NCBI GenBank assembly: GCA_020831525.1
Contig: JAFIGH010000046.1
Location: 1-37,402, forward strand
Origin: Opitutales bacterium
GTDB taxonomy: Bacteria; Verrucomicrobiota; Verrucomicrobiia; Opitutales; Oceanipulchritudinaceae
Reading direction: 5' to 3'
Length of the DNA: 37,402 nucleotides
A program made the translations under genes and the position numbers. Positions 145 to 18,004 of the stretch are shown here, piece by piece (within the stretch, counting starts at the first letter, position 1; each line of letters begins with the position of its first letter). Under the pieces are notes generated by a model, which was not told where the DNA came from, did not search any database, and was given only the letters and a program-made list of their open reading frames with translations.

Positions 145-1293
145 TCAGTTGCCGTCGGTGAGAAACCGGTATTCCGTGACTTGGGTGTAGACTTCGCCTG
201 GGCGAAGAATGGTGTTCGGAAAATCCGGTTGGTTTGGCGAATCCGGGAAATGCTGCGCCTCAAGGCAGAATCCGCTGCGGTGTTCGTAGGCGACACCGCG
301 TTTGCCGACGAGGGTGCCGTCGAGGAAGTTGCCTCCGTAGAACTGGAGGCCCGGTTCGGTTGTCCACACTTCCATGATGCGCCCGGTGTTGGGCTCGAAG
401 ACGAATGCAGCTTTGGCGAGTTCGCCGGTCTGGTTGTCGAGGACCCAGTTGTGGTCGAAGCCCTGACCGTATTGGAGTTGTTCGTCGTCGCGGTTGACGC
501 GGTGGGCGATGGCCACCGGGGTGGTCAGATTGAAGGGCGTGTCGAAGACGGGCCTGAGTTCACCGGTCGGGATGAGGCCCTCGTTCACGGGGGTGAAGCG
601 GCGGGCGTGGATCATAATCTCGTGTCCGTTGATGTCGCCGTTGCCTTCGCCGCGCAGGTTGTAGTAGTTGTGCTGGGTAAGGTTGACGGGCGTGGCCTTG
701 TCCGTGGTGGCTTCGTATTCGATGCGCAGGGCGTCGTCGTCGGTGAGCCAGTAGTAGACGGTGACGTCGAGGTTGCCGGGATAGCCTTCCTCGCCGTCGG
801 GGCTGCGGTAGGTGAGGCGCAGGCCGCGCGCATCTTCGCGATGGACGGGCGTGGCGTCCCACATGACCTTATCGAAACCGTGTTCTCCGCCGTGGAGGTG
901 GGCGGGAATTCCGCCCGGTTCGTCGTTGGTGGCGAGTTGGTAGGTCTCGCCGTCGAGTTCGAAGCGGCCATGCGCGATGCGGTTGCCGTAGCGGCCTATG
1001 AGACAGCCGAAGTAGGGCGATTTTTCCTCGAAGTCGGCGAAGTTGTCGAAGCCGAGGAGGATGTCGTCCAGTTCGCCGCCGCGGTCGGGCACGAGGAGGC
1101 GCACCATGGTGCCGCCATAGTTCATGATCTCGGCGTGCAGGCCGTTGGCGTTGACGAGCGTGTAGAGGCGCACTTCTTCGCCGTCTTTGGTTGTGCCGAA
1201 GGGTTCGTAGGTGACTTCGCGTTCAAGCATCGGTTGGCAGGCCGTGAGGAGTAGGGCTCCGGCGAGGAACAGGAGGTATTGTGTCGTTTTCAT
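145..1293 (-). CDS. galM: Aldose 1-epimerase (GalM family), predicted lipoprotein
   Basis: Interconverts alpha and beta anomers of free aldoses. The 382-residue protein has the mutarotase signature set: GRYGNRI near 100, LHGG with His134, TQHNYYNL with His208, GFDHNW with Asp280 and CLEAQHFPDSPN with Glu345. By family knowledge these are the catalytic and sugar-binding His, Asp and Glu residues. I chose the ATG at 1293 because it begins a lipoprotein signal (MKTTQYLLFLAGALLLTAC, lipobox Cys19). A frame extending to 1401 would run into the symporter gene. The signal suggests it acts in the periplasm or on the outer surface, equilibrating anomers released by exo-glycosidases before uptake. It is the last gene of the minus-strand block, 47 bp after the symporter. 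Family is certain; substrate range is not. No Shine-Dalgarno is visible. Confidence 0.93.
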   Translation of the reverse strand: MKTTQYLLFLAGALLLTACQPMLEREVTYEPFGTTKDGEEVRLYTLVNANGLHAEIMNYGGTMVRLLVPDRGGELDDILLGFDNFADFEEKSPYFGCLIGRYGNRIAHGRFELDGETYQLATNDEPGGIPAHLHGGEHGFDKVMWDATPVHREDARGLRLTYRSPDGEEGYPGNLDVTVYYWLTDDDALRIEYEATTDKATPVNLTQHNYYNLRGEGNGDINGHEIMIHARRFTPVNEGLIPTGELRPVFDTPFNLTTPVAIAHRVNRDDEQLQYGQGFDHNWVLDNQTGELAKAAFVFEPNTGRIMEVWTTEPGLQFYGGNFLDGTLVGKRGVAYEHRSGFCLEAQHFPDSPNQPDFPNTILRPGEVYTQVTEYRFLTDGN

Positions 1294-1340: not shown

Positions 1341-2612
1341 TCATTTCGGCGGACGTTTGCTCCAGTAGTTTGCGAGGATGGAGCCGGAGATGTTCATCCA
1401 CGGGCTGAAGACGGCGGCGGCAAGCCCCACGGTGCCGAGCTTGCCCATGGCACCTGCAAGCCCGGAGGCCATGCCGCCGTTTTGCAGGCCGACCTCAAGG
1501 GCCATCGTCCGTGCCGAGCTGCGGTCGAGGCCAAACGCCCGGCTCAGCCAGTAGCCGAAGAAGTAGCCTGAGGTGTTGTGGAGAACGGCGGCGAGAAAGA
1601 GGAGGAAGCCGACTTCGAGGAGGTGGTCGCGTCCCGCCGCCGTGGTGACGAGCGTGAAATACACGATTCCCGCCATGGAGAAGTAGGGCATGACGGAATC
1701 CAGTTTGCGGAACCGGAGGGTGAGGAAGTGGTAAGCGAGGCCGGCGAGGACTGCGCCGGCGAAAAAACCGAGGAGTTCGAGCGTGGTGTAGACCGATTCC
1801 GGGACAGTGCCGTGCAGCCACGCGGCTCCGCCGGAAAGTAGAAACAGCAGCCATACAGCGGAGACTCCCGCGACAGTGAATGCACGCCGCCACCCTGTGG
1901 CAGACGCGCGCTTAAGGTAGTCGTGCAGCATGGCCGCGCCAATCGGAACAAGAACGATCTTAGTGATCTGCACCATCATGCCGATGAACGCGATTTCGAT
2001 GAGTGTGCCCGCGAACACCTGCATGAGGAAGGGCGTCATTATGGGTGCCGCAAGGGTAGCGACCGACGTTACCGTGACGGAGAGGACAAGATTGGCGCGG
2101 GCGAGGTAGGCCATGACATTGGAGGCGAGGCCGCTCGAGCACGAGCCGATGAGAATGATCCCGGCGGCGATCTCGACGGGAAAGTGGAAGATTTTGGTCA
2201 ACGTGAAACCGACCACGGGCATGATGGAAAACTGACAGAGTAGACCGATGAGAACGCCGCGGGGGTGCGTGCCCACACCCCGTAGGTCGGCAAGGCTCAT
2301 TTGCGTGCCCATGCCGAACATGACGAGTTGTACGACGAGAAGAATGAGCCACGGGCTGCGCATGTCGAAATCGCCGACGGTGAGAAACGCCGACGGGTAG
2401 ACCATGGCGGCGATGACGGCGGCGATAATCCAGCCGGTGTACTGGTAGGCGCGTAGGGCGGGGAGCGCGCCGAGGCCGATCGCCGTCCCGACCGCGGCGA
2501 GAACGCCTGCCGGTTGCGCGACAGCATCGGCGCCCGCGATGACGGCGCCGACGGCGGTGACGAAGGCGATACCCCCGAGGGCGAGAGAGAACTGGCGAAG
2601 ACGGAGAAGCAC
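1341..2612 (-). CDS. BASS-family (bile acid:Na+ symporter-like) transporter
   Basis: Inner-membrane secondary transporter of 423 residues with about ten hydrophobic segments. The recognisable core is GSCSSGLASNVMAYLARANL followed by LSVTVTSVATLAAPIMTPF, matching the conserved small-residue crossover region of the bile acid:sodium symporter (SBF/BASS) family. Bacterial members of this family carry organic acids with sodium. The start is a GTG at 2612, six bases after the stop of the racemase-like gene, with no Shine-Dalgarno, so translational coupling is likely. Position after an RLP, an acid-sugar kinase and a racemase-like protein suggests uptake of a sugar acid (an aldonate such as apionate or a related compound) rather than a bile acid. 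Substrate is inference; family call is firm. Confidence 0.88.
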   Translation of the reverse strand: MLLRLRQFSLALGGIAFVTAVGAVIAGADAVAQPAGVLAAVGTAIGLGALPALRAYQYTGWIIAAVIAAMVYPSAFLTVGDFDMRSPWLILLVVQLVMFGMGTQMSLADLRGVGTHPRGVLIGLLCQFSIMPVVGFTLTKIFHFPVEIAAGIILIGSCSSGLASNVMAYLARANLVLSVTVTSVATLAAPIMTPFLMQVFAGTLIEIAFIGMMVQITKIVLVPIGAAMLHDYLKRASATGWRRAFTVAGVSAVWLLFLLSGGAAWLHGTVPESVYTTLELLGFFAGAVLAGLAYHFLTLRFRKLDSVMPYFSMAGIVYFTLVTTAAGRDHLLEVGFLLFLAAVLHNTSGYFFGYWLSRAFGLDRSSARTMALEVGLQNGGMASGLAGAMGKLGTVGLAAAVFSPWMNISGSILANYWSKRPPK

Positions 2613-2618
2613 GGATCG

Positions 2619-3308
2619 TTACTTTTGGTGCGCATGCCCGCCGGGAAGAAAGATCTGCGCGAGATAGCGCATGGCGATGGGAGGGCTCGCTAGAATGGGG
2701 ACGCATTTGTCCTTGTCGTCGAGTGTGTCGACGACACGGGCCATGGAGGCTTGGGCGAGGACAACGACGTCGACTTCGCGTATGAGCGTGCGCAGTGCCT
2801 CCGCGACCATGGCGTCGTGTTTGTCGGCGTCTCCACTCATGAGGGCGTCGAAGGCACCTTCACAGAGGCGGGCTTCTATACGGACATCGCGCCCGGCGAA
2901 GCCGGCGCGCCGTTCGACAAGGTCGGCGGTGGGATCGAGCGTGGTCGGCAGTGTCGCGACCACGCCGATACGTTTGCCGGTGCGGACTGCCGTATCCGCC
3001 ATGGGCTGGTCGACACGGAGCACGGGGACGGCCGTGAACGGGACCGACGCCTCCACAGCCGGGCCGATGGAGGAGCAGGTGACCATTATATAATCGGCTC
3101 CCGCGCTCTCAGCCGAGGCGATGTGATTGGCCACACGCCGGGCGTTCCGCGGTGTCAGGGTGTTCTGGGCGATGACGTCGCGGATGAGGCTGTCGTCGGC
3201 AATGTGGAACGCGTTCACGCCGGGGAGGTGTTCCGCGCAGAGCTTTTGGAACACCGGCACCAGCGTGGCGGAAGTGTGAATGAGGGCGAGAGTGCTCGGA
3301 TGGTTCAT
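2619..3308 (-). CDS. Asp/Glu-racemase-superfamily protein with a single catalytic Cys
   Basis: A 229-residue cytoplasmic protein of the aspartate/glutamate/hydantoin racemase superfamily. The first catalytic-loop motif, VTCSSIG, keeps its Cys (Cys78). At the second loop, where two-cysteine members have a Cys in an LGCxxM-like motif, this protein reads VVLAQASM, so that cysteine is absent. A classical two-base racemisation is therefore unlikely; lyase, isomerase or hydrolase chemistry on a sugar acid is possible. The start is uncertain. The ATG at 3308 follows the kinase stop by 17 bp, has no Shine-Dalgarno and begins close to the family core. A TTG at 3329 overlaps the kinase stop (TTGA) and has AGGAG seven bases upstream, which would add seven residues. 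It sits between the DUF1537 kinase and the BASS symporter. Confidence 0.8.
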   Translation of the reverse strand: MNHPSTLALIHTSATLVPVFQKLCAEHLPGVNAFHIADDSLIRDVIAQNTLTPRNARRVANHIASAESAGADYIMVTCSSIGPAVEASVPFTAVPVLRVDQPMADTAVRTGKRIGVVATLPTTLDPTADLVERRAGFAGRDVRIEARLCEGAFDALMSGDADKHDAMVAEALRTLIREVDVVVLAQASMARVVDTLDDKDKCVPILASPPIAMRYLAQIFLPGGHAHQK

Positions 3309-3325
3309 TGTATGGAAAGTACGGG

Positions 3326-4639
3326 TCAAGGGTCGACTCCTGCCGCGAGTGAGAAGAAATGATCGTTCCCCACTTGTCCTCCTTTGAAGATGACTTCGGA
3401 TTCATGGACGTGCGGATTGGTTGAACGCGCCCGGCACAGCGGGGCGCCCGGCCAGAATTGCGCGGCGGCATCGACGGCGTCGATCCCGAGGGCGCGGGCG
3501 GCGTATCCGGAGGTGTCGCCGCCGGCCATCACGACGCGTCCGGTCTGTGCGTTCCGGAGAACAGCGTCGGCGCATGTCCCGAGTGCTGTGCCGAGGACAC
3601 GGGCGGTGTCCTGCGCACCGGACACCGCTTCGCTGAGTGCATCGGTATGGAGGATGACGTTCTTTCCCTTCGTGATGAGATCAACTACCCCGTCGACCGA
3701 CATGCGGATGGCGTTGTCTCGTTCCGCAGTGTCGAGGAGACGCGGAACGTCGAGCGCGTGGAGCGCAAACCCGCTTTCCCGTGCATGGCGTATTTGCGCT
3801 GTGGTGACCGGAGAGCGACTGCCGCAGAGGACAAGAATCGGCGCTGTCGGTTTCTCCGTTTCGGCGGCATGGAAGTTGCGGTCGGTAGACGAAGAAACGA
3901 GCGCCCTTTCCACCGAAGAGGAACCAACGGCAAAGAGCGGCCGGGCTTTCGAAGCGACCGCTGAAAGGATTTCGCCAACCCTGCGGATGTGCACGTCGTG
4001 GAGAGCGTCAAAGAGGATGTTGGCGAATCCCTTCCGGGCAAGCGAATCAATTTTGCGGATGATCTCAGGAACGGGTCTATCCAGGTCGAGAACATCAATG
4101 AGTCCGGTCTTGCGCCCGGTTTGCTCCGCGAGGTGCAGGCGCAGATCGCTTTCCTTCGCCGGGGTGACCGGATGGCGGCTCATCGAGGGATGGCGGTCGA
4201 GCCGGTGGATTTCGCCCGACCCTCCGATACCCATGCGTGCGAACAGGTTGCCGAAGACACAGTAGCGTCCAAGGCCGGGCGCGCCGACGAGAATAGGAAT
4301 CCACGCGTTCGGAAAAACGTCCGCGCCAATATCAAGGGCTTTGCCAATACTGCCTGTGGCGGGCGACGAATCAAAAGTTGAGCAGACCTTGTAGTGAATG
4401 AGTTGCGGCGAAAGTTTACGGAGAACGGCAAACGCGGGACGAAGCTCTTCCTCCATTGCCTCCGCGGCCAGAGACCGGCTGACACCCGCGATGCCGACGG
4501 CGTCGAAGCCGCGGCATTCGTCAAGCGCCTCTTGATCGGGCAGGCGCATAAAAAGTCGTGCCCTCAAGCCCGCGAGGGCCACTTGTTCGAGGGCGTCGGT
4601 TGAGCCCGTGAAGTCGTCGCCGTAGAACCCGAGAATCAT
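3326..4639 (-). CDS. DUF1537 four-carbon acid sugar kinase family (candidate 3-oxo-isoapionate kinase)
   Basis: ATP-dependent kinase of 437 residues. Motifs in order: GDDFTGSTDALE at 7-18 (substrate domain DDxTG), KVCSTFDSSPATGSIG near 84-99, CGSRSPVTTAQI near 272-283, MAGGDTSGYAARALGI at 371-386 and KGGQVGNDHF at 419-428 (nucleotide domain). This is the full DUF1537 pattern. Known members phosphorylate 3-oxo-tetronates, threonate, erythronate or 3-oxo-isoapionate (OiaK). The ATG at 4639 overlaps the RLP stop as ATGA and has GGAGA seven bases upstream; upstream in-frame codons lie within the RLP gene and encode a shadow. The coupling to an RLP is what points to the apionate route, where the kinase supplies the phosphorylated 3-oxo acid to the RLP. 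Specificity is inference; threonate- or erythronate-type substrates remain possible. Confidence 0.88.
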   Translation of the reverse strand: MILGFYGDDFTGSTDALEQVALAGLRARLFMRLPDQEALDECRGFDAVGIAGVSRSLAAEAMEEELRPAFAVLRKLSPQLIHYKVCSTFDSSPATGSIGKALDIGADVFPNAWIPILVGAPGLGRYCVFGNLFARMGIGGSGEIHRLDRHPSMSRHPVTPAKESDLRLHLAEQTGRKTGLIDVLDLDRPVPEIIRKIDSLARKGFANILFDALHDVHIRRVGEILSAVASKARPLFAVGSSSVERALVSSSTDRNFHAAETEKPTAPILVLCGSRSPVTTAQIRHARESGFALHALDVPRLLDTAERDNAIRMSVDGVVDLITKGKNVILHTDALSEAVSGAQDTARVLGTALGTCADAVLRNAQTGRVVMAGGDTSGYAARALGIDAVDAAAQFWPGAPLCRARSTNPHVHESEVIFKGGQVGNDHFFSLAAGVDP

Positions 4640-5883
4640 CGCTTCTCTCCGAATTTGGCGATGGATTTGGCGAGTTCGGGGTGGCTGCGGGCCGCTTCGT
4701 TGAGGGAGACGCCTGTGACAGCGGCCTCCCATGCCTGCCGCAGCGCGCGCACTCCGCCCGCGGGGCCGTCGGGATGGGCCATGATGCCCCCGCCCGCCAT
4801 GTAGAGGAGATCGACCGTCTGGGTACGCCGCCATGTCTCCGGCGCCTGTCCGCCCCATTGGCCGGACGATACCACCGGGAGGACGGAAAAACCGTCGAGG
4901 AAGGGTTGGAGGCAGGATTCGATGGAATGAACCACCGAGTCGTCGGGTTCCCAGAATTTATTGGCGATGCCGTTGACGTGGATCTGGTCGACGCCCGCGA
5001 GCCGCCACAGCTTTTGGTAGGCGCGGAAGTCGATGCCCAGAAGGGGATGGCGGTTGAGCATGCCCCAGCCGTTGCGGTGGCCGTGGACGGCGAGTTGGCC
5101 GCGGTCGCAGACCGCCTTTACGGCGGATAAGCCGACGCTGTTGATGCTGACCATCGCGCATGTGCCCTCCGCCTTCACGATCATGTCGTAGTGGCTATGC
5201 ATGGCTTCGAGTTCACCGCTGATGTTGAAGGCGTACATGACCCGCTTTCCAGTGCGGTCGGCGTGCCGCCGGAGGACGTCCATGACGGCGGACACACGCT
5301 CGCCGAAAGGCGAGTGCGGGGGGTCAGCCATCAACTCGTCGTCCTTGATAAAGTCGACCCCGGCCTCGGCGAGTTCACCGACGAAGCCCGCCGTTTGCTC
5401 CGGACTGAGGCCGACGCTCGGCTTGATAATCGTTCCGATGAGGGGGCGTCCTTCCACTCCGGTCAGACGGCGCGTGCCCACGACGCCGAAGGCGGGGCCG
5501 CGGAACCGGTCGGCAAAGGAGGGCGGGACCTCAAAGTCCATGAGCTTAAGACCGGAGAACTGGGCCAGCTCGTAGAGATTGCCCTGCAGCGTGGAAACGA
5601 GGGTAGGTAAGTTGTACCCGAAATTCTCGACTGACCATGAGATGGTGACATCGGCGCGCCGGAAATTTGTGCCGGGTGGGCGGCTTCCGGGAAGCGCGGG
5701 TGATTCGGAGGCATCAAGTTCGGTGACGCCTTCAACGCGGGCCCGGAAACGGTTGCGCAGCGCCTCGTCTTCGCCGGGAACCTCGACGAAGGTTCCGGAA
5801 GATTGCTCGCCCGCGAGCGATTCGGCGGCCGCGTGAACGTCGAGGGGCGTCTCGATACGGTATGTGGCACGGACCCGCTCCAT
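4636..5883 (-). CDS. RuBisCO-like protein (form IV), candidate acid-sugar phosphate decarboxylase or transcarboxylase
   Basis: A 415-residue member of the RuBisCO large-chain superfamily. Aligned by eye to the plant enzyme, it keeps Lys154 in GTIIKP (K175), the metal-site triad Lys180/Asp182/Glu183 in FIKDDE (K201, D203, E204), His269-Arg270 (H294, R295), His302 (H327), Lys309 (K334) and the phosphate glycines in AGGGIMAHPDG at 363-373. It loses K177 (Ser156) and H298 (Trp273), so it should not be a CO2-fixing RuBisCO. Known RLPs beside DUF1537 kinases include the 3-oxo-isoapionate-4-phosphate decarboxylase and the transcarboxylase/hydrolase of D-apionate catabolism; I cannot tell which applies. 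The ATG at 5883 lies two bases after the GH78 stop. A second ATG at 5901 would overlap GH78 and add six residues. Cytoplasmic; retains the carbamylatable Lys and metal ligands. Confidence 0.9.
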   Translation of the reverse strand: MERVRATYRIETPLDVHAAAESLAGEQSSGTFVEVPGEDEALRNRFRARVEGVTELDASESPALPGSRPPGTNFRRADVTISWSVENFGYNLPTLVSTLQGNLYELAQFSGLKLMDFEVPPSFADRFRGPAFGVVGTRRLTGVEGRPLIGTIIKPSVGLSPEQTAGFVGELAEAGVDFIKDDELMADPPHSPFGERVSAVMDVLRRHADRTGKRVMYAFNISGELEAMHSHYDMIVKAEGTCAMVSINSVGLSAVKAVCDRGQLAVHGHRNGWGMLNRHPLLGIDFRAYQKLWRLAGVDQIHVNGIANKFWEPDDSVVHSIESCLQPFLDGFSVLPVVSSGQWGGQAPETWRRTQTVDLLYMAGGGIMAHPDGPAGGVRALRQAWEAAVTGVSLNEAARSHPELAKSIAKFGEKR

Positions 5884-5885
5884 GG

Positions 5886-8612
5886 TCAGAATCCGCTCCA
5901 TGTGCTCTCGAACGTGTGCGTGCCCGGCTCTGCGCGGATGACGATGTGCCGCCCTTCGCGCGGGAGGTCGCCGGGCAGCGGATGGCCGTCGGCGTTGGGA
6001 CGGGTCCCGGGGTCGGCGGGGATGAAAACGCGGGCCGATGTGTTCGGGGGGATGCGCACGGTCCAGTGCAGGCGGCCGCCCTCGATGCGCCACTCGCTGC
6101 GGATCTCGCCGTGGATACTGCGATAGCGTGTCTTGGCGTGCCCGAGACGGGAGTCGGGCCATGGTTTGAGGACGAACTGCCGGAAACCGGGGTGATCCGG
6201 ATCCGTTTCGATTCCGCCGACGTGACGGAATAACCACTCGCCGATGGAGCCGAGCGAGTAGTGATTGAATGAATTCATGTGCGGATTAAAGAACCCGTCT
6301 TCTTCCGTCCAACCGTTCCAGCGCTCCCAGATCGTTGTCGCTCCGTGCTTCACGGGATAGAGCCACGACGGGTAGTCATCCTGCAGGAGCAGCTTGTAGG
6401 CGACATCGGCGTAGCCGTAGTCCGTGAGAATCGGGTTGAGGAAGCGGATGCCGATGAAGCCGGTGCTGAGGTGCCAGTCGAGCTTTCGGATGTTTTCGAC
6501 AAGATGTTCGGCGGCGCGCGCCCGCACATCTTCCGGCAGGAGGTTCATGGCAAGCGCGAGGAGGTAGGCCGTCTGTGTCTCGACGGTCAGGCGCCCGTCG
6601 CCGCTGTAAAACTCCTTTTGAAACGCATCACGTACGACTTCGAACATTGCCTCGAAGCGCGCGGCGTCCTCCCTATATCCGAGCGCGTGTGCCATCTCCG
6701 CCATCTTGGCGGCGTCGTCGGCCCAGAACGCCGTGGCGAGGAGGTTCTTCATGGGCGAGTGGGTGCGGAAACTTGTGTCGGAGGGGATGCACAACCAGTC
6801 GCCGTAGTTGTTTCCTAGTTCGTTTTCGCGGATCCCGCGCGGGTTGGTCCGTTCGAGGTAGTCGAGCCACGCGGTCATGGATTTCCAGTGGCGTTCGACG
6901 ATGCGCGTGTCGCCGTAGACCCGCCACATGGTGTGGGGTATGATAACCCCGGCGTCGGCCCAGCCGGCGCCGCCGCCCAGGCCGTCGAGACCGACGAAGT
7001 TGCCTTCGTCTTCCGGCAGACGCGGAGCGGTGTCGGGAAAGATTCCCTCCGGCGTCTGGGCGTCCGCGATGTCGGTCATCCACTTTGTGAAGAAGGCGGC
7101 GACGTCCATGTTGTAGGAGGCGGTGCGCATGAAGACCTCGGCGTCGCCCGTCCAGCCGAGGCGTTCGTCGCGCTGCGGGCAGTCGGTGGGGACGGTGAGG
7201 AAGTTGTCGCGCTGTGACCAAAGGCCATTGAGCCAGAGTCGGTTCACCCCGGGATGGGCGCACTCGAAACATCCGGCGTGGGGGAGGGCGGAGTGCACGA
7301 CGCATCCGATGGCGGTGTCGGCTGTCGGTTCGGTGGGCAAACCGTCGATCTCGAAATACTGAAAACCGTGGAAGGTGAAGCGGGGCTCCCAGATCTCCTC
7401 GCTCTTGCCGTTGCAGATGTAGACGTCCCTTGCTTTGGCGCGGCGGAGGTTTTCTGTGTAGAGATTTCCGTCGTTGTCGAGCCGCTCACCATGGCGCAGC
7501 TTCAGGCGGGTGCCGGACGGTGCCCGGACACGGATGCGTACCCAACCACTGATATTCTGCCCGAGGTCGAAGAGGTATTTGTCCTTGCCGACCGCTTTAA
7601 CGGATACGGGGTGGATTGTCTCCGTGATGCGGACAGGTTCGTTGCGCTGGGCCACGAGCGGTGCCTCCGGTGGATCGACAACGGCGGCGGGGAGCCATCC
7701 GTCGTCATTGTATCCGTGCTGGTCCGCGCCTTTGTTTTCGCGGCGGGCGTCGTAGGTTTCGCCCATCATAAAGTCGGAGGCAAGGACCGGGCCGGTGTTG
7801 CAGCGCCATGAGTCGTCGCTGGCGACGACGATACGTTCGCCCGAATCCAACTCCAGCTCGAGTTGGGCAGCAAGGCTGGTCCGGAAGCCGTAGCGGCCGC
7901 GTGTTTCCTGCCAGCCGACATACCCGCTCCACCAGCCGTCGCCGAGCATGGCGGAAAGGACGTTGGGCCCCTCGCGCAGCCACGCCGTGACATCGTAGGT
8001 CCGGTATTGGATGCGTTTCCGGTAGTCCGTCCATTCCGGGGCGAAGAGATCGTCGCAGATACCGACACCGCCAAGGGTAAATTCAAAGATGCCGCGGGCG
8101 CTTGCGTATAGTGTTGCGCGGCGCACGCCGGAGGGCACGGTGAAAACCTTCCGGAAACACGCCGGTGTGGCTGGTTTGGTTCTGTCGCCGGGCGTGGCTT
8201 TTGAGTCGCGGGCGAAGATCGCCGGGTCGGCTGCAATCCAGTCGGTCTCCCAGTCACCGGCGTCCAGCAGGCCCATGCTCCAGTATTCGGCGTCGGATAC
8301 AGAGGAATTGCCTTCGGAATCCCACACCTCGACATTCCAGTAGCAATACTGCCGCGATTGAAGGGGGCTTCCGCCGTAGACGATGTGCCGGGTTTGGCTG
8401 CTGTCGGTGCGTCCGCTGTCCCAGAGGTCCGCCCCGTCGGCGGCGAGAAACTCCGGTGCCGTGGCGACGCGCACCCGGTAGGCCGTCTGGCGCGCGCCGT
8501 CGCCCTCGGATTCGATGGTCCAGCCGAGGCGTGGACTGCGTTCATCGATACCGAGCGGGCGCGCGAGGTATTCACAGCGCAAGTCGGTGGCTTGGAAGCG
8601 GGAGACTGTCAT
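5886..8612 (-). CDS. GH78 alpha-L-rhamnosidase
   Basis: A 908-residue bacterial alpha-L-rhamnosidase releasing terminal alpha-L-rhamnose. The N-terminal beta domains start with the family's LRCEYLARPLGIDERSPRLGW. The Bac_rhamnosid core carries CPQRDERLGWTGD with Glu483 as the likely general acid, GWADAGVIIPHTMW near 550-563 for the (alpha/alpha)6 barrel, and GATTIWERWNGW with Glu763 as the likely general base, followed by SFNHYSLGSIGEWL. There is no signal peptide, so it probably acts in the cytoplasm on imported oligosaccharides. The ATG at 8612 is preceded by gatttc and no Shine-Dalgarno. It lies two bases from the RLP start and 78 bp after GH127, with a strong hairpin between. Rhamnose is a main component of RG-I and of RG-II side chains. 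Confidence 0.95.
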   Translation of the reverse strand: MTVSRFQATDLRCEYLARPLGIDERSPRLGWTIESEGDGARQTAYRVRVATAPEFLAADGADLWDSGRTDSSQTRHIVYGGSPLQSRQYCYWNVEVWDSEGNSSVSDAEYWSMGLLDAGDWETDWIAADPAIFARDSKATPGDRTKPATPACFRKVFTVPSGVRRATLYASARGIFEFTLGGVGICDDLFAPEWTDYRKRIQYRTYDVTAWLREGPNVLSAMLGDGWWSGYVGWQETRGRYGFRTSLAAQLELELDSGERIVVASDDSWRCNTGPVLASDFMMGETYDARRENKGADQHGYNDDGWLPAAVVDPPEAPLVAQRNEPVRITETIHPVSVKAVGKDKYLFDLGQNISGWVRIRVRAPSGTRLKLRHGERLDNDGNLYTENLRRAKARDVYICNGKSEEIWEPRFTFHGFQYFEIDGLPTEPTADTAIGCVVHSALPHAGCFECAHPGVNRLWLNGLWSQRDNFLTVPTDCPQRDERLGWTGDAEVFMRTASYNMDVAAFFTKWMTDIADAQTPEGIFPDTAPRLPEDEGNFVGLDGLGGGAGWADAGVIIPHTMWRVYGDTRIVERHWKSMTAWLDYLERTNPRGIRENELGNNYGDWLCIPSDTSFRTHSPMKNLLATAFWADDAAKMAEMAHALGYREDAARFEAMFEVVRDAFQKEFYSGDGRLTVETQTAYLLALAMNLLPEDVRARAAEHLVENIRKLDWHLSTGFIGIRFLNPILTDYGYADVAYKLLLQDDYPSWLYPVKHGATTIWERWNGWTEEDGFFNPHMNSFNHYSLGSIGEWLFRHVGGIETDPDHPGFRQFVLKPWPDSRLGHAKTRYRSIHGEIRSEWRIEGGRLHWTVRIPPNTSARVFIPADPGTRPNADGHPLPGDLPREGRHIVIRAEPGTHTFESTWSGF

Positions 8613-8690: not shown

Positions 8691-10790
8691 TCAGCGGGCG
8701 GGAATCCAGACCGCCATATCGGTGTCGCCGCGGTTGCCCCATGCGTAGTAGGGGACCAGCTTCACGTCGATCGTGCGCGGGGTGGTGGTTTGGACCGGGC
8801 GGTAGAGTTCGTCGGACCTCCAGTCGGGCCGGCGGATGTGCAGGCCGGGAACGGTGAGCGTGACGAGGGCCGCGTTCTCGATCGTTTCGCGCTCGGCTTT
8901 GAAGTTGCCGGGCGATTCCGTGATGGAGAGGGCAACATCTTCGATGCGCACGTCGGCGGGGAGGTCGTTGCTCTCGATGCAGTAGACGAGCGGTCCGTTG
9001 CGCACGACCACTTGGTTGAACGATTCCTCGACAAGCGGATTCGATTCCCAGAGGGTGGGCTCGAAGGGGATCGTGAAGGAGACAACGTCGCCTTCCTTCC
9101 ATTCGCGCGTGACTTCGGCGTAGGTGCCCGGCCTGAGGGCGGGACCTTGCGGCACGCCGTTGACCATGATGCGTCCGCTGCCGGCCGTTGCCCATGAGGG
9201 AATGCGCAGTTTTATCGTGATGGGGCGCTCGGGTGCTTCGTCGATCTTGAGCTTTACGGCGCCGTCCCACGGGTAGTCGGTTTCCTGGCGGAGGCTGATG
9301 CGGCCGCCTTCCTTCCACTTCGTCTCCAACGTGCTCGCGCCGTAGAGTTGTACCCAGAGGGTGTCGGGCGAGAGCGTATAGGCGTAGTTCTGCACCTGCG
9401 AGATTACGCGCACGACATTCGGCGGGCAGCAGAAGCTGTAGGGAATGTTCGGCTCGCGCGTGCGCGACCAGCGCATGGGCCAGTCGAATTCATGGTGCTT
9501 GCGCATGGGGTTGACGTAGAAATAGTGCGTGCCGTCGAGGCTGATGCCGGGAAGGACACCGTTGTACATGGCTTGCTCGAAGAGGTCGGCGTATTCGGGA
9601 TCGCCCGTGAGGGTGAGCATGCGCCACATCCACATGGCGTAGCCAATGGTCGCGCAGGTTTCATTGTAGGCCGTGAGGAGGGGCAGTTGCCAGTCGCGCC
9701 CATAAGCCTGGTGGACGAGTTGGATGCCGCGGTGGTCGGTCGAGCCGTCGGGGGAAGCGCCGTCGTAGAGCGCGCCTGTCATCCCGGTGATGTAGAGTTT
9801 CCGCTGCGCGACGTTCTCATGGAGTTTGCGCAGGGTCTCGAAGAGGGTGCCGTCTCCGGCCTCGGCGAACACGTCGGCGACGCCTGCGTAGAGGTAGTTG
9901 GCGCGCACGGCGTGGCCCACAGCCTCATTCATTTCGCGGAACGGGACGCGGTCCTGGTTGTGGTCCCGTTTTTCCCTTACATCGGCGCGGAGTTCGATCA
10001 TCTGCTCGGCGGCCTCAAGGTAGCGCGGGTCGCGCGTGATCCGATAGATCTCCACAATGCCCATGTAGTGGGAAGGACAGATGGCGTTGTTTGCGAGCGT
10101 GAGAGGATCGTTCTTGTAGAGATCGTAGATGTAGTCCGCCGCCTTTATGGCGAGCTTGAGCATGCTGTCCTTACCCGTGACACGGTGGTGGAGGGCGGCG
10201 GCGGTCATGAGGTGGCCCATGTTGTAGGTCTCGAAGTCCTCGCGCCGCTGAAACTCGACCCGCTCGTCGCTTCCGCGCCGCTGCGGGATAATTGTCATGG
10301 TGTGGAGGTAACCGTCCTCACGCTGGGCTTTTCCCACGACGTGGATGATGCGGTCCATGAGTTCGTCGAGTTCCGGGTCGTCGGTGAGGGCATAGATTTG
10401 TATCACGCCCTCGAACCATTTGAGGAAATCGCCGTCATTGAAGACGGGTCCCTGGTGGCTGTCACCCGTGACCTTGTCGTCGTAGCCCGCGGCGAGAAGG
10501 AAGTTCGCCCATGCATGGCTCTCTTCTTCGCTTTGGAAGATCTCCCACATGTAGGGCACCATGGAATGCCGGCAAACGTCGAAACGCTCGGCCCAGAATC
10601 CGTCGGTCCAGCGGGTGTCGCGCAGGCCGGGCATGTACATGACGGCGTGCGGCGACATTCCGGTGTCGACGAGGGCGTGGGCATGCCCGCAACCGTGATG
10701 GTCGCAGACATGAGCCGCAATCTGCCCCGGAAGGGCGGCGGCGAGCGCGGCGAAGACCGCGCGGAATAGGTGAGGATGTAGTGCTCTCAT
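8691..10790 (-). CDS. GH127-family beta-L-arabinofuranosidase-like enzyme (DUF1680)
   Basis: A 699-residue secreted protein with an N-terminal hydrophobic signal ending near the His/Cys-rich segment at 27-38, then an (alpha/alpha)6 barrel and C-terminal beta-sandwiches. The zinc-thiolate site of GH127 is clear: YNETCA with Glu377 and Cys379, and SFCCPPN with Cys454 and Cys455, equivalent to E338, C340, C417 (nucleophile) and C418 of the Bifidobacterium enzyme HypBA1. At the position I align with its acid/base E322 there is Gln361, which is unusual. Family members cleave beta-L-arabinofuranosides, and one gut Bacteroides GH127 acts on the aceric-acid branch of RG-II, so the sugar released here could be either. 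The gene is 31 bp downstream of the FGGY kinase with no visible Shine-Dalgarno. Confidence 0.9.
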   Translation of the reverse strand: MRALHPHLFRAVFAALAAALPGQIAAHVCDHHGCGHAHALVDTGMSPHAVMYMPGLRDTRWTDGFWAERFDVCRHSMVPYMWEIFQSEEESHAWANFLLAAGYDDKVTGDSHQGPVFNDGDFLKWFEGVIQIYALTDDPELDELMDRIIHVVGKAQREDGYLHTMTIIPQRRGSDERVEFQRREDFETYNMGHLMTAAALHHRVTGKDSMLKLAIKAADYIYDLYKNDPLTLANNAICPSHYMGIVEIYRITRDPRYLEAAEQMIELRADVREKRDHNQDRVPFREMNEAVGHAVRANYLYAGVADVFAEAGDGTLFETLRKLHENVAQRKLYITGMTGALYDGASPDGSTDHRGIQLVHQAYGRDWQLPLLTAYNETCATIGYAMWMWRMLTLTGDPEYADLFEQAMYNGVLPGISLDGTHYFYVNPMRKHHEFDWPMRWSRTREPNIPYSFCCPPNVVRVISQVQNYAYTLSPDTLWVQLYGASTLETKWKEGGRISLRQETDYPWDGAVKLKIDEAPERPITIKLRIPSWATAGSGRIMVNGVPQGPALRPGTYAEVTREWKEGDVVSFTIPFEPTLWESNPLVEESFNQVVVRNGPLVYCIESNDLPADVRIEDVALSITESPGNFKAERETIENAALVTLTVPGLHIRRPDWRSDELYRPVQTTTPRTIDVKLVPYYAWGNRGDTDMAVWIPAR

Positions 10791-10821: not shown

Positions 10822-12303
10822 TCAGGCGAGCGTCTTGCGCACCGCGGCTTGCCAGCCGTCGTAGAGTCGCGCGACTTCAGCCTCGTCGAGCTGCGGGGTG
10901 TAGGTGCGGCCTTCGTGCGGGAGCGCGGCGATGGCGGCGGGGCCGTTGAGGATGCCTGCGCCCCACATGCCCGCGAGGACGGCGCCGAGGGGCGATCCGT
11001 CGGAGGTGTCGGCGACGCGCAGCCGCGCGCCGGTGAGGTCGGCGGTGAACTGCATGAGGAAGTTGTTGGCGGTGGGGCCGCCGTCGGCGTGGACAGCCTT
11101 CGGGGCAGCGCCGGCGTCTTCGCCCATGGCGTCGAGGGCGTCGCGCAGTTGGTAGGCGATGGATTCAAGGGCGGCGCGCACGATGTGGCGGCGGTCGCTC
11201 TGTGCGCTCAGGCCGGTGACGGCGGCGCGCGCCTCCGGCTTCCAGTGGGGAAGGCCGAGGCCGGTGAAGGCGGGCACGAGGTAGACGCCGCCGTTGTCGG
11301 GAATGGAGCGGGCGATGGACTCGGCTTCGGCAATGCCGGGGAGGATGCCGAGTTGGTCGCGCAGCCACACGAGGGTTGAGGCTGAGCTGATGACGATGCC
11401 TTCGAAGGCGTAGGTCGGCTGGCCTCCGTGTACCCACGCAAGGGTGGTGACGACGCCGCGGCTGGAGTCGCGCCTCTGCGGGCCGAGGGTCATGAGGATG
11501 GAGGAGCCGGTGCCGAAGGTGACTTTGGCCGAGCCGGGTTCAAAGCAGCGCTGCGCGAGGAGTGAGGCGTGTGAGTCGCCCATGACGCCCTGTATGGGTA
11601 CGGCGCGCGGGAGCAGGCCGCCGAGGTCGGTCTCGCCGTAGGCGGCGGTGCTGTCGCGGACTTCGGGGAGGGCGCGCCGGGGTACCTTCCACAATTTGCA
11701 GAGGTCCGCGTCCCACTCCAGCCGGTCGATGTTGTAGAGGAGGGTCCGGCAGGCGTTGGTGTGGTCGGTGGCGAGGACCTTGCCCTCCGTGAGCGCGTGG
11801 ATAAGGAAAGCGTCGATGGTCCCGGCGGCGGCACTGCCGTCGGCGAGGCGCGCGGCGACGGTGCTGTTGTTTTCAACCAGCCACTGGAGTTTGGAGGCGG
11901 AGAAGTAGGGGTCGATACGCAGGCCGGTGCGCTGCGCGACCGTGTCTCCGTGCCCGGCTTCGAGGTGCGCTTCGCAGAGGGGCGCGCCGCGGCGGCACTG
12001 CCAGACGACGGCGGGGGCGAGGGGCTCGCCTGTTTGCCGGTCGAAGACGACGACGGTCTCGCGCTGGTTGGTGAGACTCAATGAGCGGATGTCACCGAGG
12101 TCGTCGCCGTGGCGGGCGAGGAGGGCATTGAGGGCGGCAAAGGTGTTGGCGCGGATTTCGGAGGCATCGTGCTCGACCCACCCCGGGCGGGGGTAGTGCT
12201 GCCGGTGGTCGCGCGACTCGCGGTCGAGGACGCGGCCGGACGCGTCGAAGAGCAGTGCCTTCGTCGCGGAGGTGCTTTGGTCAATGACGAGGAAGCGCGG
12301 CAT
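10822..12303 (-). CDS. FGGY carbohydrate kinase, glycerol-kinase-like (candidate D-apulose kinase)
   Basis: A 493-residue two-domain kinase. Motifs include IDQSTSATKALLFD at 7-20, LTNQRETVVVF at 77-87, WQCRRG at 101-106, DPYFSASKLQWLV at 131-143, VMGDSHASLLAQ at 240-251 and GTGSSILM at 264-271, with HADGGPTANNFLMQ late in the ATPase domain. Compared with E. coli GlpK, the glycerol contacts Arg81, Glu82, Trp101, Tyr133 and the catalytic base Asp243 are kept. GlpK Gln246 is Ser244 and Phe270 is Ser268 here, opening the pocket. Together with a split transketolase and an isomerase, this fits a ketopentose kinase such as D-apulose kinase rather than a true glycerol kinase. The start lies one base from the transketolase C-subunit stop, so expression is coupled. 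Cytoplasmic. Confidence 0.88.
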   Translation of the reverse strand: MPRFLVIDQSTSATKALLFDASGRVLDRESRDHRQHYPRPGWVEHDASEIRANTFAALNALLARHGDDLGDIRSLSLTNQRETVVVFDRQTGEPLAPAVVWQCRRGAPLCEAHLEAGHGDTVAQRTGLRIDPYFSASKLQWLVENNSTVAARLADGSAAAGTIDAFLIHALTEGKVLATDHTNACRTLLYNIDRLEWDADLCKLWKVPRRALPEVRDSTAAYGETDLGGLLPRAVPIQGVMGDSHASLLAQRCFEPGSAKVTFGTGSSILMTLGPQRRDSSRGVVTTLAWVHGGQPTYAFEGIVISSASTLVWLRDQLGILPGIAEAESIARSIPDNGGVYLVPAFTGLGLPHWKPEARAAVTGLSAQSDRRHIVRAALESIAYQLRDALDAMGEDAGAAPKAVHADGGPTANNFLMQFTADLTGARLRVADTSDGSPLGAVLAGMWGAGILNGPAAIAALPHEGRTYTPQLDEAEVARLYDGWQAAVRKTLA

Positions 12304-12304
12304 T

Positions 12305-13327
12305 TCAGGCGGTTCGGGCGGCGGAGGACTGCGCGAGGGTGAGGGCGGTTTGAGCGAGGCCTTCCATGGTCAGGCCGTAGTGGCGGAAAATGTCGGCCTG
12401 GCTGCCGGTGACGGTGTATTCGTCGGGGAAGGCGGCGGTACGGAAACGGCAGGACACGCCCGCGCGGAGAACGAGCGCGGCACAGGCTTCGCCGAGTCCG
12501 CCGTGGACCATGTGCTCCTCGGCGGTGACAACGGCTCCGCATTCGCGGGCGGCGGCAAGGACGGCCCCTTCGTCGAGCGGTTTGACGAAGGGCACGCTGA
12601 GGACCCGGCACTGCAGCCCTTCGGTGCGCGCGAGGTATTCGGCGGCGAGGAGGGAGTGGATGACAGTCTCGCCCGTGGCGATGAAGGCGAGGTCGGCGCC
12701 GTCGCGCAGCACGCGGGCCGCGCCGTGGACGAAGGGCGCTCCGCGTCCCGGCAGGTCATAGAGGGCGGACTTGCCGAAGCGCAGGTAAAGCGGCGTTTGC
12801 GCGCGCGCGGCATGGCGCACGGCTGCGGCGGCCTCGTGGTTGTCGGCGGGAGCGACGACGGCGAGGTTGTTGATCGCCCGCAGCACGGCGAAGTCGTGGA
12901 TGGAGTGGTGCGTCGAACCGAGCGCGCCGTAGCTCACGCCCGCGCTGATGCCGACGAGGCAGACGGGCTGGTCGGAGTAGGCGACGTCATTCTTGACCTG
13001 TTCGAGCGAGCGTGCGGTGAGGAAGCAGGCGGGGGAAACGGCGAAGACCTTTTTTCCCGCGGAGGCCAGACCCGCCGCAATACCGACGAGGTTTTGCTCT
13101 GCGATGCCCACTTCGACGATCTGCCGGGGCAGCTCTTTGCCGAAGGGGCCGAGTTTGCCCGAGCCGCGCGAGTCGCTCGTCACGGCGAGGATGTTGCCGT
13201 TGGCGCGGGCGAGTTCGAGGAGGGTTTCGGCGAAGATTTCGAGGTTTGCCCGACCGAGGGTCAGGCCGAGCGCTTCCGCGATTTCGCGCGCGGCGGCGCT
13301 GTGCATGGGCGGGGCGGGTGCACTCAT
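12305..13327 (-). CDS. Transketolase, C-terminal subunit (pyrimidine and C-terminal domains)
   Basis: The 340-residue second half of a split thiamine-diphosphate transketolase. It contains EVGIAEQNLVGIAAGLA at 72-88, with Glu77 as the invariant cofactor-activating glutamate, then AVSPACFLTARSLEQVKNDV and GSTHHSIHDFAVLRA, followed by the C-terminal Rossmann-like domain around LSVPFVKPLDE and TAEEHMVHGGLGEA. It starts at an ATG overlapping the N-subunit stop (ATGA) and has a near-perfect Shine-Dalgarno AGGAGGTG five bases upstream, as expected for stoichiometric subunits. Split transketolases in sugar operons include D-apulose-4-phosphate transketolase (AptAB), which transfers a two-carbon unit to glyceraldehyde 3-phosphate. 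The role with the adjacent FGGY kinase is inferred by analogy. A general pentose-phosphate transketolase is the alternative. Confidence 0.92.
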   Translation of the reverse strand: MSAPAPPMHSAAAREIAEALGLTLGRANLEIFAETLLELARANGNILAVTSDSRGSGKLGPFGKELPRQIVEVGIAEQNLVGIAAGLASAGKKVFAVSPACFLTARSLEQVKNDVAYSDQPVCLVGISAGVSYGALGSTHHSIHDFAVLRAINNLAVVAPADNHEAAAAVRHAARAQTPLYLRFGKSALYDLPGRGAPFVHGAARVLRDGADLAFIATGETVIHSLLAAEYLARTEGLQCRVLSVPFVKPLDEGAVLAAARECGAVVTAEEHMVHGGLGEACAALVLRAGVSCRFRTAAFPDEYTVTGSQADIFRHYGLTMEGLAQTALTLAQSSAARTA

Positions 13328-14175
13328 GCCGGCACCTCCTCTCCGAAGGCGGAGAGCTGTTCGTCGATTTCGGTGATCGCCTTGGCGTATTCGACGTCAT
13401 CAGGCACGCCGTGGTGCCACTTGCCGACATCCTCCATAAAGCTCACGCCGCGTCCCTTGCGCGTCATGGCGATCACGACTGAGGGTTTGCCGGGTTCGAG
13501 CGGTTTTTCGAGCGCTTCGGTGAGGGCGGTGAAGTCGTGTCCGTCGACCCGCCGCACGGCCCAGCCAAAGGCGGCGAACTTTTCGTCGAGGGGTTCGTTG
13601 TTCATGACTTCGTGCGTGCGCCCCGTGATCTGGAGGGTGTTGCAGTCGACAATAGCGGTGAGGTTGTCGAGATTGTAGTGCGCGCCCGACATGGCGGCCT
13701 CCCAGTTGGAGCCCTCGGCCAGTTCGCCGTCGCCGAGGAGCGTGAAGACGCGGTAGGGTGCACCGTCGAGCTTTGCCGCGAGGGCCATGCCGACGGCGAC
13801 AGAGAGCCCGTGCCCGAGCGCGCCGGTGTTTTGCTCGACGCCCGGAACTTTGCGCGTCGGGTGCCCCACAAAATGCGACTGGTAGCGGCAAAGTGTTTCC
13901 AGTTCGGCCTCCGGATAAAACCCTTGGTCGGCGAGCACGACGAAGAGGGCCTCGACGGAATGTCCTTTGCTCTGCACATAACGGTCGCGCATCGGATCGC
14001 CGAAGGTATCCGGCGCGACGTTGAGGATGCGGTTGTAGAGCACGTTGAGGATGTCAACGCAGGAGAGGCTGCCGCCGGTGTGGCCGGCCCCGGCGTGCTT
14101 GATCCACTTGAGGACGCTGCGCCGGTAGCGCAGTGATTTCTCCGCGAGTTCGCGGTCGGCCGGACGTTGTCGCAT
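13324..14175 (-). CDS. Transketolase, N-terminal subunit (TPP pyrophosphate-binding domain)
   Basis: The 283-residue first half of the split transketolase. It has HTGGSLSCVDIL at 32-43, SKGHSVEALF at 69-78, TGALGHGLSVAVGMALA around 117-133 and the thiamine-diphosphate motif GDGELAEGSNWEAA beginning at 148 and closing with VDCN (Asn179). I chose the ATG at 14175, four bases after the isomerase stop, with GGAG nine bases upstream; the open frame further upstream lies inside the isomerase gene. It ends by overlapping the C-subunit start. Full-length transketolases are about 650 residues, so the two subunits (283 + 340) together make one complete enzyme. Cytoplasmic. Confidence 0.93.
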   Translation of the reverse strand: MRQRPADRELAEKSLRYRRSVLKWIKHAGAGHTGGSLSCVDILNVLYNRILNVAPDTFGDPMRDRYVQSKGHSVEALFVVLADQGFYPEAELETLCRYQSHFVGHPTRKVPGVEQNTGALGHGLSVAVGMALAAKLDGAPYRVFTLLGDGELAEGSNWEAAMSGAHYNLDNLTAIVDCNTLQITGRTHEVMNNEPLDEKFAAFGWAVRRVDGHDFTALTEALEKPLEPGKPSVVIAMTRKGRGVSFMEDVGKWHHGVPDDVEYAKAITEIDEQLSAFGEEVPA

Positions 14176-14179
14176 AGGT

Positions 14180-15604
14180 TCAGGCTCCGGCCGGCTCGTG
14201 GTGGTAAACGTCCCAGCCGAGGTATACGGTGAAGGCTTCTTCGAGGACGGCGGCGGTGTGGGAGGCATTCATGACAACGTGGTGTTCGAAGCCCTCGCGG
14301 CAAATGTAGCGCATGAGCCCCTGCAGGTCGGGCACCTCTGCGACGGCGCGCGTGCCGAAAGTTTTCAGTTCGTCGTCGGTGAGGCGGCCTTCGCCGATAT
14401 AGGCGCGGATCGTCCCGCGCGTGTCGTCGGTGCTGATCCGCCCGAAGGTGAGCCGTCCCGCCGGCGTGCGCCCTTCCAGTGCGCCGTAGGTGTTCTCCTC
14501 GCCCACCGAGGTGCCGAGAATCGGCGCGGTCGCAACCTTGGTCTGGTCGAGAAACGACTTTGCCCAGTTGCCGCAGTGGAACAGCACGCACTTATCGGGA
14601 TCGTCGCCGTAGTTATTGTTCCAGTCGACCAGCGCGCTGGGTGTGCCCGAGGCGAGCTGCATGGCATACATCGTGAGCACGCCGGTGACATCGACTTCGC
14701 AGGCGCTGGGCAGGAGCTGCTCGCTCATCATGCTCATGCTCGTGCACACGTTGCAGCCGTGGTTCTGCTGCACGGAGGTCCAGCACTGGATGGCGGTGGC
14801 ATCGAGGTGATTGTCGGCGACAAACCCGTCGAGGACGACGCCGAGACGCGCCATCTGCGCGAGCTTTGCGGGCGGCACGCCGGTCGTGTCCGCATAGTCT
14901 TTGATCTCAGCGGTCTTGGCCGCGAGGCGATCATCGTCGTCCTTGATCTTGTTCGCTTCGCCGAGGATTTCGGAAAGGTCGACGGTTGTTACGCTGATGC
15001 CGTTGCGCTCGAGGATTTTCTCGCTGTAGCGCACCGTGTTGAAGGCCCCGGGGCGGGCGCCGACCGCGCCGAGGCGCACCCCGCGCAGCCCGCCGACGAC
15101 GCGGCATACGGCAAGGAAGCGACCGAGGTCGGCGAGGAAGGAGGGATCGTCCGGGCGTACGACGTGGCGCGCCGTGAGCGAATAGGGAATGCCCGCCTGG
15201 CGCAGGTTGTTGCACACCGAGATCTTGCCGCAGTAGGCGTCGCGGCGGCGAATGACATCAAGGCGCCCGAGATCGTCCGGATAGCCCTGTACGAGCACCG
15301 GCACCTTCAGCCCCGAGAGCTTCAGGGTGTCGGCCACGCCCTTCTCGTCGCCGAAATTGGGCAGGACGACGAGGACGCCGTCGATCTCCTCGCGGTGCCG
15401 CGCGAACAGCTCCGCGCATTTGCGCGCCTCCGCGTGGGTTTCCACGCCGCCCAGTTTTGAGTCCGAGGGCGAGAGCATGACCGCGCGGATCCCTTTCTCG
15501 GCGAAGAGTTTTTCGAAGTCCGCACGTGCCTCTTCAACAAGCTTGTCCGGAAAGAAATCCCGGTTGCCGAAGATTACGCCCAGTGTAATGGGGTCTTTTT
15601 TCAT
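14180..15604 (-). CDS. L-fucose/L-arabinose isomerase-family protein (candidate branched-pentose isomerase)
   Basis: A 474-residue aldose-ketose isomerase of the FucI/AraA superfamily, shorter than FucI (about 590). N-terminal Rossmann-like domains contain VLVVLPNFGDEKG near 77-89. The catalytic region has CWTSVQQNHGCN near 274-285, MSEQLLP with Glu295, CEVDVTGVLTMYAMQLASG with Asp305 (like the FucI END-x-LNG motif) and LFHCGNW with His343. These are the likely manganese ligands Glu, Asp and His. It is the first gene of the block and is followed immediately by split transketolase and an FGGY kinase, so it probably makes the ketose that the kinase phosphorylates. The ATG at 15604 is preceded by tatttc and lacks a Shine-Dalgarno; a TTG at 15613 is less likely. 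L-arabinose, L-fucose or D-apiose are possible substrates; I favour a pentose. Confidence 0.85.
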   Translation of the reverse strand: MKKDPITLGVIFGNRDFFPDKLVEEARADFEKLFAEKGIRAVMLSPSDSKLGGVETHAEARKCAELFARHREEIDGVLVVLPNFGDEKGVADTLKLSGLKVPVLVQGYPDDLGRLDVIRRRDAYCGKISVCNNLRQAGIPYSLTARHVVRPDDPSFLADLGRFLAVCRVVGGLRGVRLGAVGARPGAFNTVRYSEKILERNGISVTTVDLSEILGEANKIKDDDDRLAAKTAEIKDYADTTGVPPAKLAQMARLGVVLDGFVADNHLDATAIQCWTSVQQNHGCNVCTSMSMMSEQLLPSACEVDVTGVLTMYAMQLASGTPSALVDWNNNYGDDPDKCVLFHCGNWAKSFLDQTKVATAPILGTSVGEENTYGALEGRTPAGRLTFGRISTDDTRGTIRAYIGEGRLTDDELKTFGTRAVAEVPDLQGLMRYICREGFEHHVVMNASHTAAVLEEAFTVYLGWDVYHHEPAGA

Positions 15605-15945
15605 GAAATACAAATTGAAATAGACTGATTATCTGACCGTGTCCAGCCCTGAAAGGCAAACTTTTTCCAATCGGCCCCTTCCGCTCCTCGGCACCGTTGC
15701 GCGAGCGAATGGCGGGGGCGTCTCCACGTGCAGCGCAAGTGTTTGGCGTGTAGGGATATATCCTATATTACCAAACGCTTACAGATTACGCTGGAACGAT
15801 TCTGTCGGATGGATGCGGGGCATGGGTGGCCGGTGCGGGCAGGTCTTCGGCGCGGCGCGGCGGGGTCGATTTTTGTTGATGAAATTCAAATGAACTTTGA
15901 GATTGGTTGTCTCGACAATCACCAGTTTTTCTTCCTTATGCACCC
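15605..15945. promoter_or_regulatory. Divergent control region between the two catabolic blocks
   Basis: This 341-bp gap separates the minus-strand catabolic block from the plus-strand hydrolase block and should hold both promoters. On the isomerase side there is a TGAAATA pair (15604-15610 and 15616-15622) and a GATAAT-like hexamer further upstream. The middle holds a large dyad at 15737-15780. The beta-helix side has an AT-rich patch around 15870-15900 with ATGAAATTCAAATGAA. I could not place a good -35/-10 pair with normal spacing on either strand. No gene is convincing in this stretch. Confidence 0.55.
15737..15780. promoter_or_regulatory. 44-bp concentric palindrome, candidate operator
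   Basis: Outer arms AAGTGTTTGG (15737-15746) and CCAAACGCTT (15771-15780) match as an inverted repeat at 9 of 10 positions. A perfect inner palindrome GGATATATCC (15754-15763) has exactly the same centre (15758.5). The element sits about 133 bp from the isomerase start and 166 bp from the beta-helix start. The shared centre favours a dimeric or tetrameric regulator site serving both operons. No regulator gene is present in the window. Confidence 0.55.
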
Positions 15946-17844: not shown

Positions 17845-17897
17845 GCTGTGCGGGGCGTCGGCCCGTTCGGGAGGGCATGAAAACGTACGTTCGGTGA

Positions 17898-17937
17898 ATG
17901 AAATAAGAAGAATATTCAAAATTTCATTGAAATTCAT
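17898..17937. promoter_or_regulatory. AT-rich dyad upstream of the CotH gene
   Basis: In the 160-bp gap before the CotH-type gene lie ATGAAATA (17898-17905) and ATTTCATTGAAAT (17921-17933). The latter is a perfect 6-bp inverted repeat around a single T and is followed by TCAT. The same TGAAATA/ATTTCA unit recurs near other operon starts in the window, so this is a candidate regulator site. Confidence 0.4.
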
Positions 17938-18004
17938 CTTGAGTCCTGTTCTTCTTTTGTTGAGTTTTCCCCTGCTACAAACCCCGGACAGTATATTTTA
18001 TTTC

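Follow-up and report, generated by a model that had tools for sequence, protein, structure and literature searches.

Within 37,402 nt of DNA from an Opitutales bacterium (the window, meaning here the whole stretch analysed), genes for a RuBisCO-like protein (RLP), a DUF1537 kinase, an Asp/Glu racemase-fold protein and a BASS-family symporter lie side by side, which raises the question of what compound they act on. We propose, with a probability of about two in three, that these four genes constitute an aceric acid catabolic module within a rhamnogalacturonan-II (RG-II) operon, a proposal in which the substrate and every reaction are what we infer. Aceric acid (3-C-carboxy-5-deoxy-L-xylose) occurs in plant pectin as a rare branched sugar; all plant cell walls contain RG-II, whose breakdown to free sugars is known.

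The initial annotation of this locus had the coordinates, order and families of the four genes right, as well as the ATGA overlap between the RLP stop and the kinase start (4636-4639) and the gaps of 17 bp between the kinase and racemase-like genes (3309-3325) and of 6 bp between the latter and the BASS gene (2613-2618). The racemase-like ORF starts at the ATG at 3308, the listed ORF end at 3329 corresponding to an upstream TTG. Describing the set as a mini-cluster is accurate insofar as the four genes are adjacent, but they are not free-standing, since only 2 bp separate the GH78 gene from the RLP start and genes on this strand continue the run both ways (Table 1). They belong to an 11-gene minus-strand run from 15613 down to GalM at 145, in the order putative apiose isomerase, split transketolase, FGGY kinase, GH127, GH78, the four genes and GalM, whose spacing suggests a single transcript.

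Table 1. Genes of the minus-strand run and the divergent neighbour; L123-L125 are the apiose-type clusters of Klebsiella, Sodalis and Rahnella.
Feature	Position	Strand	Evidence
Aldose 1-epimerase (GalM), apparent lipoprotein signal	145..1293	-	PF01263 301 bits
BASS-family Na+ symporter, PanS-like; proposed aceric acid importer	1341..2612	-	PF01758 102 bits
Asp/Glu racemase-fold protein, one catalytic Cys; candidate aceric acid aldose-ketose isomerase	2619..3308	-	PF01177 80 bits
DUF1537 (four-carbon acid sugar kinase) family, OiaK-like; proposed kinase of isomerised aceric acid	3326..4639	-	PF07005, PF17042
RuBisCO-like protein (RLP), OiaX-like; proposed aceric-ketose 1-phosphate decarboxylase	4636..5883	-	PF00016 228 bits, PF02788
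GH78 alpha-L-rhamnosidase, 2 bp upstream of RLP	5886..8612	-	PF17389 404 bits
GH127, putative aceric acid hydrolase (BT1003-like)	8691..10790	-	NF049879 899 bits, cut-off 950; best solved structure 5mqo, 679 bits
FGGY kinase, putative D-apulose kinase (AplK)	10822..12303	-	PF00370/PF02782; 36-38% identity to L123-L125
Transketolase C-terminal half, putative AptB	12305..13327	-	PF02779/PF02780; 39-43% identity to L123-L125
Transketolase N-terminal half, putative AptA; true start uncertain, ORF overlaps isomerase gene	13324..14268	-	PF00456; 52% identity to L123-L125
L-fucose-isomerase-like, putative D-apiose isomerase (ApsI)	14180..15613	-	PF02952; 55-56% identity to L123-L125
GH141-type protein, divergent from operon	15907..17844	+	PF21231 183 bits

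A genome-collection scan (346 relatives, 80 loci kept) detected the order RLP-kinase-racemase-BASS automatically in 59 of the 69 loci with enough downstream flank, which argues that the arrangement is not due to chance, and a tblastn map recovered several further loci with this order that had been missed by clustering. The survey of genome neighbourhoods that the initial annotation had suggested thus found the set to be widespread, in Bacteroidota, Verrucomicrobiota and Planctomycetota, one of the carriers being Pedobacter nyackensis (L061); uniqueness to this genome, named in that annotation as evidence against its reading, was not observed. The closest locus (L033, RLP 89% identical) belongs to an Opitutales MAG and carries the same operon, from the isomerase through GalM. 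In two loci (L099, L111) the kinase gene is not beside the RLP but at a different place on the contig. Upstream of the RLP in some Mucilaginibacter and Anditalea loci (L065, L078, L089, L097, L106) there are CaiB CoA-transferases, a MaoC dehydratase, Gfo/Idh and solute-binding-like proteins; genes of these types near some Pedobacter and Mucilaginibacter RLPs were considered as part of the core and rejected as lineage-specific. An RLP from Croceibacterium was not counted as a member because it groups with ApnO-type proteins in the tree and the GH127 is only 26% identical.

The RLP has the PF00016 and PF02788 domains and the KDDE motif with the carbamate Lys and metal ligands, as expected for a form IV member of the RuBisCO superfamily. 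K180, D182, E183, H269 and K309 (carbamate Lys, metal ligands, active-site His and loop-6 Lys) are kept in 91 of 91 RLPs, while the equivalents of K177 and H298 are Ser and Trp. These 91 proteins form one clade (support 96/95), placed next to annotated OiaX with support 96/96, a sister relation that hangs on one long branch. Among curated models OiaX (NF042437) is the top named family, with 525 bits for the window RLP and 500-506 for its relatives against a cut-off of 700, which annotated Paracoccus OiaX exceeds with 777. Similarly, OiaK (NF042436) is the best named family of the kinase, at 376 bits against a cut-off of 700 that appears strict, as kinases from loci of the ApnO type also score just 441-473. 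The BASS protein has the SBF domain, and its 199 bits against the PanS equivalog model fall below the cut-off of 400; PanS, a BASS relative, transports pantoate-type hydroxy acids.

Adjacent DUF1537 kinase and RLP genes, RuBisCO catalytic residues and the ranking of OiaX recall the OiaK/OiaX arm of D-apiose catabolism, which is said to have been described by Carter et al. 2018. Together with the fact that apiose is an RG-II sugar and that OiaK and OiaX are the best named families, this would be compatible with an oxidative D-apiose/apionate pathway, in which the kinase would phosphorylate 3-oxo-isoapionate and the RLP would decarboxylate or transcarboxylate the product, as OiaX or OiaT. The window differs from that arm in the scores well under both curated cut-offs, in the added racemase-fold and BASS genes and in the nearby RG-II glycosidases. 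RLP-kinase loci of Paracoccus (annotated OiaX), Halalkalicoccus, Roseibium and Microvirga contain a '6-phosphogluconate dehydrogenase C-terminal' gene, taken to be ApnO (apionate oxidoisomerase), and no racemase-fold or BASS gene, Shinella being similar; conversely, two ApnO homologues used as queries gave 0 matches in the window and in loci L013-L114 (~90 loci).

A further difference lies in the remainder of the operon. The isomerase, half-transketolase and FGGY kinase genes, found together at 10822-15613, match adjacent-gene clusters in Klebsiella, Sodalis and Rahnella (identities in Table 1) whose gene content agrees with that published for ApsI, AptA, AptB and AplK, the growth-tested non-oxidative D-apiose pathway (PMC13001218). 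All four homologues are consecutive in the window, as in that pathway, whereas in genomes with the RLP set they behave as a separate module that is sometimes elsewhere or absent. In one genome (G010) the RLP set is together with GH127, and the apiose genes lie on a different contig next to a gene of the apiosidase type; another (G140) carries the apiose module plus the hydrolase and lacks the RLP set. The 26 RLP-positive genomes tested, 25 from Bacteroidota and one from a planctomycete, include 9 without the apiose isomerase. In G140, apparent GlcD and GlcF glycolate oxidase genes, identified by eye, follow GH78 (L144, 5696-8436), at the place where other Opitutales carry the RLP set. The absence of ApnO from the window and the loci searched, and the separate apiose module, here within the same operon, led us to reject apionate as first choice, and we regard this reading as very improbable. 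The sugar-acid pathway with dedicated uptake and an extra step that had been put forward for these genes therefore stands in part: there is a candidate carboxylate uptake gene, and a protein missing from canonical OiaX/OiaK loci, but apionate, 3-oxo-isoapionate and linear tetronates are not supported as substrate, given the lack of ApnO, the apiose module in the operon and a distribution that tracks the aceric acid hydrolase and not the apiose isomerase. Most probably, the set is a variant of the OiaK/OiaX pair acting on a new substrate.

That distribution was observed at two levels. Among 387 Verrucomicrobiota genomes, a GH127 scoring at least 873 bits against the aceric acid hydrolase model occurs in 13 (next score, 762); these comprise 11 of the 11 genomes that have a close RLP homologue and only 2 of the other 376; a distant RLP (34% identity, in G130) was left out of this count. 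In Bacteroidota (296 genomes), all seven RLP-positive genomes are among the 16 above the curated cut-off of 950. Fisher tests gave 1e-19 for Verrucomicrobiota and 6e-9 for Bacteroidota (seed excluded), both values ignoring shared ancestry. When genomes were picked for carrying the set, the hydrolase was present in 34 of 34 (33 above 950, one at 943), also where it was not nearby. The racemase-fold and kinase genes follow the same pattern, being present in 17/17 RLP-positive versus 0/12 RLP-negative genomes that have the hydrolase. Locally, no other non-core family neighbours the set as often as GH127, which occurs in 31 of 65 well-flanked loci (15 for the families ranking next) and in 13 loci immediately precedes the RLP, more often than any other gene.

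The window GH127 itself is 51 bits below the curated cut-off of NF049879, and its closest solved structure, PDB 5mqo, is one that we take to be BT1003. BT1003 is the characterised aceric acid hydrolase of Bacteroides thetaiotaomicron (PMC10850190), whose RG-II utilisation the window resembles in this gene and in the RG-II-type glycosidases; the window additionally holds what appears to be an intracellular route for the sugar once it is released. Other neighbours fitting RG-II are GH106, GH95, GH2, GH141, BT1020-like proteins and a sialate-type acetylesterase; acetyl groups of RG-II are carried by 2-O-methylfucose and aceric acid (PMC11360243).

The association between set and hydrolase might be a sign of RG-II use as a whole, and it is indeed genome-wide, with neighbours that include other RG-II-type enzymes such as the BT1020-like proteins. 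The four genes might then serve a different acidic constituent of RG-II (Dha or Kdo, or else an acidic fragment). Being 3-deoxy-2-keto acids, Dha and Kdo differ from the branched beta-keto acid of OiaK/OiaX-type enzymes, and both the prominence of GH127 among non-core neighbours and the 12 hydrolase-positive genomes without the set speak against this explanation, which we consider distinctly unlikely.

The chemistry of aceric acid agrees with the preferred substrate. Its 2-ketose, COOH-C(OH)(CH(OH)CH3)-CO-CH2OH, is 3-oxo-isoapionate with CH(OH)CH3 replacing CH2OH. OiaK phosphorylates the CH2OH adjoining the ketone and OiaX decarboxylates a beta-keto acid, and the ketose is so close to 3-oxo-isoapionate that OiaK-like and OiaX-like enzymes would need just a slightly larger pocket. 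In the aceric acid pathway that we envisage, GH127 would free the sugar from RG-II, the BASS symporter would take up its anion, isomerisation to the 2-ketose would fall, by elimination, to the one-Cys racemase-fold protein as aldose-ketose isomerase, the OiaK-like kinase would phosphorylate its C1, and the OiaX-like RLP would decarboxylate the phosphorylated beta-keto acid to 5-deoxypentulose 1-phosphate and CO2. The kinase and symporter roles are assigned from family membership, and the uptake, kinase and RLP steps are all deduced in this indirect manner. A sugar-phosphate aldolase encoded elsewhere could finally yield DHAP and acetaldehyde; cleavage of this type is discussed in PMC6302742.

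The operon contains no aldolase gene, which would also suit an OiaT-like RLP acting on the same substrate by the same logic, with the ketose 1-phosphate transcarboxylated and then hydrolysed to 3-phosphoglycerate and L-lactate; both outcomes are reported (PMC6302742) for RLPs on 3-oxo-isoapionate 4-phosphate. The loop-6 'KFWEPDD' and 'SGQWGGQ' motifs, of which 'WEPDD' and 'GQWGGQ' are in common with annotated OiaX, and the tree position match that decarboxylase, so this evidence from sequence favours plain decarboxylation, and we deem the OiaT-type outcome unlikely. Separately, proteobacterial and haloarchaeal RLP-DUF1537 loci of the TRAP type (L155, L156, L160), which have a separate RLP class, contain enolase and/or pyruvate kinase genes, a content that would suit an RLP yielding 3-phosphoglycerate.

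The substrate is proposed with moderate confidence and the individual steps with less, the isomerisation among them. The AlphaFold model of the racemase-fold protein (pLDDT 95) matches aspartate racemases with Z 20.7 (1jfl; rmsd 2.6 A over 211 residues), while a PDB sequence search with this protein returned a marginal match only (2eq5, E 0.018). The one-Cys character noticed initially was confirmed: C78, the first active-site Cys of the Asp/Glu/hydantoin racemase superfamily, is invariant, and an equally invariant Gln (Q186) occupies the position where racemases carry the second. With this replacement, the two catalytic Cys of two-base Asp/Glu racemases are not both present and two-base racemisation is unlikely; a single base suits a proton shift or a decarboxylation better. 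We propose the protein as the aldose-ketose isomerase because the pathway needs one and no other core gene could serve, a guess by elimination at about even odds or less. The complete intracellular pathway, combining a racemase-fold carboxy-sugar aldose-ketose isomerase with an RLP that decarboxylates 3-C-carboxy-5-deoxypentulose 1-phosphate, is accordingly offered as a tentative and rather doubtful scheme. As other candidates for the isomerase, the fucose-isomerase-like gene is disfavoured by its absence from the nine RLP-positive genomes mentioned above, and a xylose-isomerase-like TIM-barrel protein (c45) was rejected, being found in few loci and apparently exported. Relatives of the racemase-fold protein in rhizobia and Deinococcus (46-50% identity) have no adjacent RLP, and its chemistry may therefore be more general. 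In Deinococcus (L122, 7995-9565), one relative has glycosidase genes around it and a class II aldolase gene next to it.

The literature searched gave no description of aceric acid metabolism by any organism, and according to a 2025 review (PMC12168206) there is a lack of standards for aceric acid. A specific and widely conserved gene set in cultivable species makes the question of aceric acid metabolism testable and, if the assignment is true, there would be new activities for RuBisCO-like proteins and for the racemase-fold superfamily. The plus strand of the window also encodes a 1512-aa protein with LTD, CotH kinase and chitobiase-C-like domains (17747-22285), an FGE-sulfatase-type domain fused to a BNR sialidase-like domain (27049-29094), and a protein with HEAT repeats and a stretch resembling the pectate lyase PelZ (29061-31301), relatives of which are found near several RLP loci.
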